Source: Candidatus Fonsibacter ubiquis (GTDB lineage Bacteria > Pseudomonadota > Alphaproteobacteria > Pelagibacterales > Pelagibacteraceae). Taken from it: 64,000 nt of DNA. Below, one piece after another: positions 49,649-58,785 of the stretch. The translations under genes and the position numbers were made by a program. The stretch covers positions 611,501 to 675,500 of the forward strand of contig NZ_CP024034.1 in assembly GCF_002688585.1 (NCBI RefSeq). The letters run 5' to 3'. The notes below the pieces were generated by a model, which was not told the DNA's origin, ran no database searches, and saw only the letters and a list, made by a program, of their open reading frames with translations. How positions within the stretch are numbered: position 1 is the first letter of the stretch; each line of letters opens with the position of its first letter.

Positions 49649-51100
49649 ATGCTACCCGATCTCAATTCTGATAAATTAAAAGAAGAATGTGGTGTATTTG
49701 GTATCTTTGATCATATTGACGCTTCTGCCTTAACTGCTTTAGGACTGCATTCATTACAACATAGGGGTCAAGAGTCTTGTGGTATCGTTTCTTATGATGG
49801 CAAAAACTTCTTTTCTGAAAGAAGATTAGGTTTAGTAGGTGATAACTTTACAAAAGAAACAACTATCCAAAAGTTACCTGGAAATTTTGCAATAGGTCAT
49901 AATCGATATTCAACGACCGGCGCCCCCGTATTAAGAAACATCCAACCTTTTTTTGCAGATTTATATACTGGTGGAATTAGTATTGCTCATAATGGAAATC
50001 TTACAAATTCAATTATGTTAAGAGAAAAAATGATTAAAGATGGCGCAATATTTCAAACAACTTCTGATACCGAAACAATAGTTCAGTTAATAGCACGCTC
50101 AAAAAGATTAAAAACTATTGATAAAATTATAGACTCTTTATTCCAAATTCAAGGAGGTTATGCCCTTGTCATGTTAACTAATAAAAAACTTATTGGCGTT
50201 AGAGATCCTTACGGAATAAGACCTTTGGTTCTTGGTAAATTAAAAAAATCATATGTTCTTGCATCTGAAACATGTGCATTAGATATTATTGGAGCAACTT
50301 TCGTTCGTGAAATCGAAAATGGTGAAATTGTTGTGATTACAAATGATGGTGTAGAAAGTATTAAACCATTCCCTAAAATAAAAGCACGTCCATGCATATT
50401 CGAATATATATACTTTGCAAGACCCGACAGTTTAATGTCTGGAAAAAGTGTTTATGAATTTAGAAAAAATTTTGGAGAGCAATTAGCAAAAGAATCTCAT
50501 GTAGACGCTGATATTGTTTCAGCTGTTCCAGATTCTGGCGTTCCCGCTGCTATTGGATACTCAACACAATCTAAGATTCCTTTTGAGCTTGGATTAATTA
50601 GAAATCACTATGTAGGAAGAACTTTTATTGAACCTACTCAACAAATTAGACAATTAGGAGTTAAATTAAAGCATAACGCAAACTCATCTTTAGTTAAAAA
50701 TAAAAGAATAATTTTAATAGATGACTCTATAGTAAGAGGAAATACATCAAAAAAAATAGTTCAGATGATGTATGACGCAGGAGCTAAAGAGGTTCATATG
50801 AGAATATCTTGTCCTCCTATTATGTATCCAGACTACTATGGAATCGATACACCAGATAAAGATCAGCTTTTAGCGCACAACATGTCTTTGGATGAAATGA
50901 CTAAATTTATTGGTGTTAAAACTTTGAGTTTCTTATCTATTGATGGCATTTATAAAGCTATGGGTTATCAGAAACGTAATAATTTAAGTCCTGAATTTAC
51001 AGATCATTATTTTACTGGAGATTATCCAATACCTCCCCTTGATCAATCAAATAGAAGTGTAAAAGACAATCAGTTATCACTGTTAAGTAATATTAGATAA
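49649..51100 (+). CDS. purF: Amidophosphoribosyltransferase
   Basis: 483 residues. It is the first committed enzyme of purine synthesis, making phosphoribosylamine from PRPP and glutamine. A 13-residue propeptide precedes the catalytic C14 (EECGVFGIFD), as in Bacillus-type PurF that is processed. The PRPP loop IILIDDSIVRGNTSKK is clear in the C-terminal half. The stop is one base from that of the convergent der-like gene. Confidence 0.96.
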   Translation: MLPDLNSDKLKEECGVFGIFDHIDASALTALGLHSLQHRGQESCGIVSYDGKNFFSERRLGLVGDNFTKETTIQKLPGNFAIGHNRYSTTGAPVLRNIQPFFADLYTGGISIAHNGNLTNSIMLREKMIKDGAIFQTTSDTETIVQLIARSKRLKTIDKIIDSLFQIQGGYALVMLTNKKLIGVRDPYGIRPLVLGKLKKSYVLASETCALDIIGATFVREIENGEIVVITNDGVESIKPFPKIKARPCIFEYIYFARPDSLMSGKSVYEFRKNFGEQLAKESHVDADIVSAVPDSGVPAAIGYSTQSKIPFELGLIRNHYVGRTFIEPTQQIRQLGVKLKHNANSSLVKNKRIILIDDSIVRGNTSKKIVQMMYDAGAKEVHMRISCPPIMYPDYYGIDTPDKDQLLAHNMSLDEMTKFIGVKTLSFLSIDGIYKAMGYQKRNNLSPEFTDHYFTGDYPIPPLDQSNRSVKDNQLSLLSNIR

Positions 51101-51101
51101 T

Positions 51102-51935
51102 TTAATATTTTTTTGATTTAAAAGGATTTTCTGCGCTAACAAATTTTAAGAAAATTTTAAAACCTTTAATATTAAATTTTTTACTTAAACTTTTAGCAAG
51201 GTACTTTTGATAATCTAATGAAAGTTTATTCGCCTGATTTCCAAAGATTTTAAAAATAATTGGTCTCGTACTTACTTGCTTAATATACTTTATTTTAGGG
51301 CGAAATTTTGAATAAACTGGGATTTTATTTTTATTAATTGCATCCTGCAAAGCTTTATTTAAGTCTTTATTATCGTAATTTTTTCTTAAGCGAGAATGAA
51401 TACTAATTACTTCATCAAATATTTTCTTTGGAAATTCTAATTTTAATGAACAAATACTAAAGGGTTCAGCTAATAAAGCATCTGAAAAAAGATTTTTTAT
51501 ATAATATATATACTCGTTTTTGATTGCCTTTAACTCATCTACTAAGTCAATTTTATTTATAGCAAAGATTAAACCTTTGCCTTTATCTAATACCAATCTA
51601 CAAATTTGTTTATCTGTTTTAGTAAATTCCTTATCAGCCTCAATCATAAATAAAACCACATCAGCTAGGTAAATTGCTTTTAAACTTTCTTTTGTTATAT
51701 ACTGCTGCTCATCAGATTTAGATTTTCCTTTCCTCTTTAACCCTCCAGAATCGATTAATTTAAAATTTCTATTTTTATAAATTACGTTATCTATAAATAA
51801 ATCTTTCGTCGTTCCCGGTATTTCACTTACAGGTGATAAATCCTTATTTAAAACTTTATTAAAAAAAGTTGACTTTCCAACATTTGGTTTTCCAACTATT
51901 GCAAGAGTAATAACTCCTGGTGATGTGCTATTCAT
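51102..51935 (-). CDS. der: Der-like GTPase with only one G domain plus KH domain
   Basis: 277 residues, against about 450-490 for Der/EngA with two GTPase domains. The G motifs are G1 GKPNVGKST (15-23), G2 around PGTT (40-43), G3 DSGG (62-65, more often DTAG in the second domain) and G4 NKID (127-130). The text after G3, LKRKGKS, matches the second G domain of Der. The C-terminal KH-like domain (about 195-272) has FRPKIKYIKQVSTRP and ends near NPF as in Der. The yfgM-bamB-der order is the same as in E. coli. No first G domain is found upstream; bamB overlaps the start. Der assists 50S ribosome assembly. Confidence 0.85.
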   Translation of the reverse strand: MNSTSPGVITLAIVGKPNVGKSTFFNKVLNKDLSPVSEIPGTTKDLFIDNVIYKNRNFKLIDSGGLKRKGKSKSDEQQYITKESLKAIYLADVVLFMIEADKEFTKTDKQICRLVLDKGKGLIFAINKIDLVDELKAIKNEYIYYIKNLFSDALLAEPFSICSLKLEFPKKIFDEVISIHSRLRKNYDNKDLNKALQDAINKNKIPVYSKFRPKIKYIKQVSTRPIIFKIFGNQANKLSLDYQKYLAKSLSKKFNIKGFKIFLKFVSAENPFKSKKY

Positions 51936-53236
51936 TAATTAAGTATTATTAACTCTGATGAACGATTAAGTATAAATATTTTGTTATCAGCTATAATTGG
52001 AGCTCTTGATAAATCGTTATTTATTTTTTTATGAGCAATATACTTTCCGTCATTTGCTGATATTTTATAAATATCTCCATTTGAGGACGTAGCATACAAA
52101 CTATTAGATGCTAGCAATAGACCATAATAACTTGGCACAGTTTTGCTATCTTTTGAAAACTTTGCAAGATTTAAACTCCATAATATTGTTCCATTTATTT
52201 TATTAAAAACAACAATAAATCCATTCTCAGTAAGGACGAATATATATTTGTCTGTACTAATATGATTTTGGATAGAGGATATATTTTGAGACCACTTAAT
52301 TTCACCCGTATCGATATTAAAATTAAATAAGTCTCCGTTATTAGATGAAACAAAAACATCTTTCTTATCAATTAAAATATTAGATGTTTTAAAAATTAAA
52401 TTATTAGAAATAGTATTTTGAGATAAAATATTCCTTGTCCAAGCAATTACCTGCTGATTTAAATCTATTGCGGTTATATCTCCAACATCATTTGTAAATA
52501 ATAACTTATCATCAAATATTGAAATATTACTAGATCTAGAGGGTTTTATTAAACCTGAAAGAGACTCAAAACTCCATATTTTTTCTCCATCGGTTGGGTT
52601 AAAAGCATAAAGTCGACTGTTTTGATTTACGACGTATAAAATGCCTTTATGAAAATTCAGATGTGAAGAAAATGGAATACCGTAGTTTTGTTGCCAAATT
52701 AACTTTCCAGTTTCAGTATCGACAGAATAAAGAAATCCTAAATTGTCAGCAGCATATAAAATATTTGAGTTTAAAAATAAAGCTATGTTTTTAGGATAAT
52801 TATTGAGAGAACTTTCATATATTTTTAATTCCCAAATAATTTTTTCTTTTTTTATATCAAATTTATAGACTCTTCCTTTTTCATCGCTAAAAAAAACAAA
52901 TTCACCACTAACTAATAATGAGCCACTATCATTATTTTTATTTATATAATCTCCAATACTTTTTTTAAAAATATCCTGAAATTTACCCTCGTAAACAAAA
53001 TGTTCGTAAAAATTATTAGAAGAAAAATGTTCGTAAACCCAATCTTTATTAAGCTTAACAGGACTCAATTGTAGTGGTGATTTAGAACTGATTTCTTTAT
53101 CAAAGATATTATTTGCTTCAAAAACATTAATTTTTTCTCCTTGCCTCTTGAAAACTTCTAAATCTACTTTTTTATCTTTATCGGACGAACATGAATAGAT
53201 AAACAGGGGTAAAAGAAAGATAAAAAAATATCTCAT
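51935..53236 (-). CDS. bamB: Outer-membrane assembly lipoprotein BamB
   Basis: 433 residues. A lipoprotein signal (1-15) ends at C16 (IYSC). The remainder is a PQQ-type beta propeller with repeated units of the kind VDTETGKLIWQQ and FNPTDGEKIWS, about eight blades. BamB supports the BAM complex inserting outer-membrane barrels such as LptD. It follows a YfgM-like gene and precedes der, as in E. coli, with no gap on either side. Confidence 0.92.
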   Translation of the reverse strand: MRYFFIFLLPLFIYSCSSDKDKKVDLEVFKRQGEKINVFEANNIFDKEISSKSPLQLSPVKLNKDWVYEHFSSNNFYEHFVYEGKFQDIFKKSIGDYINKNNDSGSLLVSGEFVFFSDEKGRVYKFDIKKEKIIWELKIYESSLNNYPKNIALFLNSNILYAADNLGFLYSVDTETGKLIWQQNYGIPFSSHLNFHKGILYVVNQNSRLYAFNPTDGEKIWSFESLSGLIKPSRSSNISIFDDKLLFTNDVGDITAIDLNQQVIAWTRNILSQNTISNNLIFKTSNILIDKKDVFVSSNNGDLFNFNIDTGEIKWSQNISSIQNHISTDKYIFVLTENGFIVVFNKINGTILWSLNLAKFSKDSKTVPSYYGLLLASNSLYATSSNGDIYKISANDGKYIAHKKINNDLSRAPIIADNKIFILNRSSELIILN

Positions 53237-53869
53237 TTATTTTAATTCTTTAATTTTTTTTTCTAAATCTTTTTTAAAGATCTCGGGAATATCTATAATC
53301 TTAATTGCTTGGTCGTATATATCTTTTGCTTTAATCTTTTGTCCTTTGCTTAAATAAAAATCGCCTAATATCTCTAATGCCAAAACTCTCCATGGAGATT
53401 CTTTAAAATCGCTTGGATTTAACAAATTTAAAAATTGTGTTTCATCTAAATTTTCAAAAGCTAATAAAGCTTTCTTAATTTTAAATAGATCTTTATCATT
53501 TTTCTCAATGTTAGAGTTAATTGCGTAATCTAGAATAGATATTTGCTCATTTTTATTTTCTTTCGATAGTTCTAACAATTTAGAAATGGCTAAAACCTTA
53601 TAAATATTAATTTTAGAAGTCTTTAAAATTTCAAGTTTTTTTTTAGCCTCGTCAATTTTTTTATTATTAATAAGGTTTAAGATTATAACGTACTCATGCG
53701 TATATTTTTTTGCTCTATTTTCAAAAATGATATTTTTGCTTACTACAAAAAAAATTAATATTAGAATTAAAGAAAATATAATGATTAATATAAATTTATA
53801 TTTCTTAAGAAAATTTATAAGCTTATCTTGTTTTAAATCTTCTTCAATTTCATTAAAAATTTGACTCAT
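53237..53869 (-). CDS. YfgM-like membrane-anchored TPR protein
   Basis: 210 residues: a short cytoplasmic N-terminus, one transmembrane helix (about 26-46) and a periplasmic all-helical region with TPR-like repeats (last at about 165-200, LGDFYLSKGQKIKAKDIYDQA). It fits the YfgM family, ancillary to the SecYEG translocon and periplasmic chaperones. The position upstream of bamB matches E. coli. Sequence similarity alone is modest. Confidence 0.8.
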   Translation of the reverse strand: MSQIFNEIEEDLKQDKLINFLKKYKFILIIIFSLILILIFFVVSKNIIFENRAKKYTHEYVIILNLINNKKIDEAKKKLEILKTSKINIYKVLAISKLLELSKENKNEQISILDYAINSNIEKNDKDLFKIKKALLAFENLDETQFLNLLNPSDFKESPWRVLALEILGDFYLSKGQKIKAKDIYDQAIKIIDIPEIFKKDLEKKIKELK

Positions 53870-58146: not shown

Positions 58147-58785
58147 TCAAATAATTTTTAAATCTCTACATAATAAATACATTTCACGAGATTCTTTTCT
58201 ACTTGAATCTGGTTTGATTCTTTCAATTTTCTTAAATAATTCTTTAGCATTTTTAATTAATATATTTTCGTCTTTACCACTAAAAATTTTTACTAATAAT
58301 GCGGATTTTGTCTTTAAAATTAACTTAGATAAATTTACCACATCCAAGGCTATAGCGTTTGTTTTGATTGCATCTAAATCTTTATTACCTGTTGTATTAA
58401 CAGCCATATCAGACAACACAATATCAACTTTATTCCGTTTAAAAAAATCATTTATAAAATCCAAAAAATCAGAATCATTAAAATCTTTTTTATAAAAAAA
58501 AATATTATCAATTATTTCCATATTCAGAATATCTATTGATAAATTTTTACCATTTTTATTTATATCAGCACAAACTTGCGACCAACCGCCCGGAGCACTT
58601 CCTAGGTCTAAAATATTTAAATTATTTTTTAAAAATTTAAACTTATTATTAATTTCTATAAGTTTAAAAGCTGATCGAGATCTATATCCCTTCTGTTTAG
58701 CTAACTTAGTGTAAGGATCGTTAAATTGTCGGGTAATCCATTTTTTAGAACTTGCTGTTAAATTTTTATTTTTAAATTTTTTCAA
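58147..58785 (-). CDS. rlmE: 23S rRNA 2'-O-methyltransferase RlmE (FtsJ)
   Basis: 212 residues. It methylates U2552 in the peptidyl-transferase A loop. RSRSAFKLIEIN, the SAM motif LDLGSAPGGWSQV (about 60-72), the catalytic aspartate in LSDMA and the late lysine in LVKIFSG form the K-D-K-E set. Common neighbour of guaB in alphaproteobacteria. Confidence 0.95.
   Translation of the reverse strand: MKKFKNKNLTASSKKWITRQFNDPYTKLAKQKGYRSRSAFKLIEINNKFKFLKNNLNILDLGSAPGGWSQVCADINKNGKNLSIDILNMEIIDNIFFYKKDFNDSDFLDFINDFFKRNKVDIVLSDMAVNTTGNKDLDAIKTNAIALDVVNLSKLILKTKSALLVKIFSGKDENILIKNAKELFKKIERIKPDSSRKESREMYLLCRDLKII

Follow-up and report, generated by a model that had tools for sequence, protein, structure and literature searches.

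On the minus strand of the window analysed, a 64,000-nucleotide stretch of Candidatus Fonsibacter ubiquis DNA, a half-length der gene lies between bamB and purF (Table 1). Der/EngA proteins consist of two tandem GTPase domains (GD1 and GD2) and a KH domain, and this gene encodes only GD2 and KH. It occupies the orthologous yfgM-bamB-der position, as the preliminary description of this DNA had proposed and as both the window and the synteny of relatives confirmed. The purF end maps only 1 bp past the der stop. With the stop codon of bamB overlapping the start of der, and purF adjoining the der stop, neither flank of the gene can conceal a GD1; the earlier remark that no remnant of the first domain persists upstream therefore proved correct, as the TAATG overlap leaves no room for one. 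In the same gene cluster, rlmE is found beyond guaB (window positions 58567-58734, minus strand, and their surroundings). In E. coli, deletion of rlmE is known to be suppressed by EngA and ObgE.

Table 1. Features at the half-der locus, in window coordinates.
Feature	Position	Strand	Basis
purF, convergent neighbour; directly abuts bamB in several der-less relatives	49649..51100	+	ORF, synteny
half-length der (GD2 + KH only, 277 aa, ATG start)	51102..51935	-	ORF, profile matches
Der-type KH domain, PF14714, residues 190-265	51141..51368	-	Pfam profile
G domain, Der GD2 homologue, residues about 8-165	51441..51914	-	PF01926; nearer GD2 than GD1; predicted fold
G4 motif NKID	51546..51557	-	alignment
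G3 motif DSGG	51741..51752	-	alignment
G1/P-loop GKPNVGKS	51870..51893	-	sequence
bamB; stop overlaps der start (TAATG)	51935..53236	-	ORF, profile match, sequence
yfgM-like gene, same operon	53237..53869	-	weak TPR_21 match below cut-off; position

Profile searches with hmmscan assigned an 82-bit MMR_HSR1 match to residues 11-128 of the encoded protein (half-Der), above the cut-off, and a Der-type KH match (PF14714) of 69.2 bits against a cut-off of 27.3. The Der model TIGR03594 covered residues 8-265 with its positions 175-431 only, and the resulting score of 216 bits fell below the full-length cut-off of 306.7; of the two tandem G domains of Der, GD2 alone is present. Both Era models (81 bits for a cut-off of 237, and 69 for 116) and the MnmE model (83 bits for 252.6) likewise scored under threshold. 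The G domain yielded a median of 89 bits against GD2 and 70 bits against GD1 of 30 full-length Ders from Alphaproteobacteria, and six more half-Ders were also nearer GD2, one of them by a narrow margin only. These scores, together with the TIGR03594 coverage, substantiate the original identification of a half-length Der made of the second G domain and KH. Motifs G1 (GKPNVGKS), G2 (PGTT), G3 (DSGG) and G4 (NKID) are all intact, with G3 a mild variant at a position where aligned relatives have DTGG, D[LV]GG, DTPG or DTAG, whereas G5 is weak (ICSL versus ISAL/ISAK in relatives), so that the claim of a full set of G motifs stands for G1-G4 and less well for G5. The protein also diverges fast, as most other genera are 29-41% identical to it in the alignment.

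We then considered the rest of the genome, which is assembled in one contig of 1,160,202 bases and 99.88% complete; that of Fonsibacter LSUCC0530, a freshwater SAR11, is 1.16 Mbp (PMC6018831). Ten P-loop GTPase matches were recovered and named from sequence as Obg, YchF, half-Der, MnmE, Era, IF2, TypA, LepA, EF-Tu and EF-G. Neither a lone GD1 nor a second or full-length der was found anywhere in this contig. The genome-wide search for a separate first G domain thus leaves half-Der as the sole Der and excludes the suggestion that this domain might be encoded elsewhere. The source genome also lacks EngB (YsxC), a further GTPase of ribosome assembly: matches above the cut-off were missing from all 17 Pelagibacterales genomes tested and from a half-Der genome of another order of the class (G177), and EngB was found in genomes that we take to be HIMB59-like and in both full-Der controls.

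The distribution of Der across genomes revealed that the half-Der or no-Der state is lineage-wide in Pelagibacterales. Full-length Der was found in none of the 60 genomes of the family sample and none of the 117 genomes of the order, and scores above the full-length cut-off were obtained for 269/289 genomes of the class and 393/397 of the phylum, the four exceptions in the latter being two half-Der genomes of Pelagibacterales and two drafts (G323 and G529). All eight sampled genomes of the source genus carry half-Der. So do 41 genomes belonging to a second family of the order and, with some drafts lacking it, three further genera of the source family (g7, g9 and g12). In genera g2 to g6, matches stayed at the level of MnmE/Era, complete g4 genomes (one contig, 1,308,759 bases) included; this der-less subgroup of close relatives is presumably marine and Pelagibacter-type. 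Apparent absence of der in nine drafts was not scored as loss, given possible contig gaps. A contig search with the half-Der alignment returned, among the matches listed, mainly full-length Ders of other phyla and one named half-Der relative, Pelagibacteraceae bacterium CP.31. Outside the order, G177 encodes a half-Der between bamB and purF in a Pelagibacterales-like neighbourhood, which may reflect either common ancestry with Pelagibacterales or a second loss of GD1. The draft G323 (1.2 Mb, 50 contigs, listed as 100% complete) had no Der match, which may reflect a contig gap or a further loss.

Synteny and trees offered a view of how this state may have arisen. At the place of half-der in the window, bamB and purF run nearly end to end in five der-less genomes, overlapping by a few bases in one and spaced by 1 to 9 bp in the other four; der is cleanly gone, with bamB and purF abutting, in genera g2, g3 and g5. 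On a tree of four ribosomal proteins, in which the positions of G177 and the HIMB59-like genome are unsure, the der-less sampled genomes formed one clade (99/98), with two state changes in all. The half-Der gene tree resolved the two families (f1 and f2) each as one clade (99 each); its deeper order was not recovered because of long branches, and a single clade of all half-Ders was not rejected (p-AU 0.67). GD1 would have been lost in, or before, the Pelagibacterales ancestor, and the remaining half would have been deleted later, in the common ancestor of Pelagibacter-type genera.

Close genomes of the genus gave half-der dN/dS values of 0.03-0.07, which points to strong purifying selection; wider comparisons, with dS close to saturation, mostly gave 0.05-0.25. 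Half-der is therefore being kept as a protein. Its AlphaFold model (pLDDT 82, pTM 0.81) found its best PDB matches in Der GD2-KH, that is, only in the second half of Der, and the GD2 motifs G1-G4 are joined to a predicted GD2-KH fold. Ribosome-bound YphC (9bs0/9bsl) aligned to the model with Foldseek TM values of 0.80 and 0.79 (aligned residues 175-436, VIA-align Z 23.1), and the trypanosome mitoribosomal EngA (mt-EngA, 7aoi) with a VIA-align Z of 25.6. The domain content, the lack of a GD1 anywhere in the genome, the conserved gene position, purifying selection, the predicted fold and the lineage distribution support the reading of half-Der as a true Der ortholog, and one that lacks the two-domain layout by which Der is defined.

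One G domain followed by KH is also the layout of Era, and an Era-like or other role in place of 50S assembly has to be weighed, all the more as the EngA KH domain alone was reported to bind 30S (PMC3466195) and C-terminal EngA of M. smegmatis bound all subunits (PMC3323550). However, the sequence, KH type and predicted fold are those of Der, and the genome already has a separate Era, which makes such repurposing improbable. Era acts on 30S. A somewhat lower chance still is given to the view that half-Der is a decaying relic that does little and is heading towards the complete loss seen in Pelagibacter-type genomes. The traceless loss of der in sister genera, the weakened G5 and a G3 that differs between genera would fit decay, but the dN/dS values given above, within the genus and beyond, do not, and half-Der is kept in two families with G1, G2, G4 and KH intact. 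As for an artefact, be it an assembly error where der meets bamB or a der that is split and has its GD1 elsewhere, no point in its favour was found, and the absence of a GD1 or full-length der from a one-contig, 99.9% complete genome, along with the identical half gene in independent genomes, other genera and a second family, leaves it a negligible probability. Both objections that the preliminary description had itself named, a full-length der elsewhere and a misassembly, therefore fall away.

We therefore return to der orthology and regard it as probable that loss of GD1 left a natural GD2-KH protein, a putative 50S factor without the GD1 gate, which was later deleted in Pelagibacter-type genera. 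On the ribosome, Der has its GD1 close to the L1 stalk and its GD2 in the P site, with KH pointing to the PTC (PMC13278734). Full-length M. smegmatis EngA requires GTP for 50S, and the protein without GD1 binds ribosomal subunits, 50S included, without it (PMC3323550); B. subtilis GD2-KH favours 50S in the presence of GMPPNP, and its K+-stimulated GTPase activity is 150-fold lower (PMC3466195). By analogy, half-Der may still use GD2 and KH to bind late 50S precursors in the P-site/PTC region, and GD2 would carry out the GTP chemistry. The missing GD1 would be the part that sits near the L1 stalk in normal Der and makes 50S binding GTP-dependent, and half-Der would thus serve 50S maturation at low turnover, using one switch rather than two. 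The earlier proposal of a minimal ribosome-assembly GTPase is favoured in this putative sense by domain content, predicted fold, selection and neighbourhood. The weak G5 and the fast divergence count against a functional half-Der, and so does Bharat's 2006 work, which is said to have found both G domains critical in E. coli. A further point against it is that the sister clade has lost der entirely, which shows Der function to be dispensable.

Among known systems, the closest is Der/EngA itself (YphC; TIGR03594; PDB 2hjg, 3j8g, 9bs0), with which half-Der shares its position by bamB, the GD2 motifs, the Der-type KH and the predicted GD2-KH fold, and from which it differs in lacking all of the first G domain (some 170 aa) and in its score under the full-length cut-off. 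C-terminal EngA of M. smegmatis (PMC3323550) and GD2-KH of B. subtilis (PMC3466195) have the same domain content, and both bind 50S, the former without GTP; these truncations are nevertheless man-made and not the only Der of a cell, whereas half-Der is natural and the sole form. Era shares one G domain followed by KH, but half-Der has the Der KH family and Der GD2 sequence, and era is present separately. Der is regarded as an essential, double-domained protein, with over 99% conservation outside CPR (PMC12641178), and EngA and ObgE as the two required factors for in vitro ribosome assembly (PMC13278734). CPR/Patescibacteria likewise lost this supposedly indispensable 50S factor; there, the whole gene was lost in CPR classes, in a manner linked with uL1/H78 changes (PMC12641178), whereas in the free-living Alphaproteobacteria of Pelagibacterales loss was stepwise, domain and then gene, while Obg, uL1 and an L1 stalk of 69 nt persist. 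Among the papers searched, we found no earlier description of a Der with a single G domain in nature, nor any of SAR11 bacteria lacking der. An abundant free-living order thus has half a Der or none, the half gene being intact and under selection in one branch. This natural gradient of two domains, one or none lets the role of each Der G domain be asked, is relevant to the design of minimal cells and of in vitro ribosome assembly, and supplies natural exceptions with which textbook views of what bacterial ribosome assembly requires can be tested.

We also inspected factors that could accompany or offset these losses. Obg and uL1 were kept in all 22 genomes tested, which led us to reject uL1 loss. 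E. coli der mutants depend on bL9 (PMC4399890); bL9 was kept in half-Der and der-less genomes wherever the locus was read, and its loss as a companion of der loss was rejected too. Four der-less stretches, like the window, were found to contain an rlmE homolog. In Pelagibacter-type genera, late 50S assembly would then be left to ObgE, plus RlmE and bL9 where checked. L1 stalk rRNA measured 69 nt in two genomes without der and in one each of the half-Der, HIMB59-like and full-Der kinds, a set that excludes the source genome, whose 23S matched in pieces only; L1-stalk loss as the cause of GD1 loss was accordingly rejected. Since L1 stalk and uL1 persist in the sampled half-Der and der-less genomes, loss of the binding site does not explain that of GD1. 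A more speculative possibility, which we hold doubtful, is that the GTP-gated L1-stalk checkpoint of Der has gone in Pelagibacterales, first through a constitutively 50S-competent GD2-KH and then through absence of any Der (EngB being absent too), with reliance on Obg and on ribosome changes such as a diverged uL1.

In the uL1 operons read, uL1 was more diverged in der-less than in half-Der genomes, with 333-335 bits in full-Der, 268-296 in half-Der and 224-255 in der-less genomes, and neighbouring ribosomal proteins were not clearly so: uL11, uL10 and bL12 gave no clear fall in score from half-Der to der-less genomes of the family. This trend is a lead rather than evidence of cause, because the der-less genomes form one clade. 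Erosion of single G domains was also noted in other genomes. In two HIMB59-like genomes (G396 and G184), Der has both G domains and a GD1 that has lost NKxD, so that GD1 has eroded separately in a further streamlined lineage from the sea. In two 600-kb alphaproteobacteria (G296 and G171), it is GD2 rather than GD1 that seems eroded, with GMWD instead of NKxD at G4.
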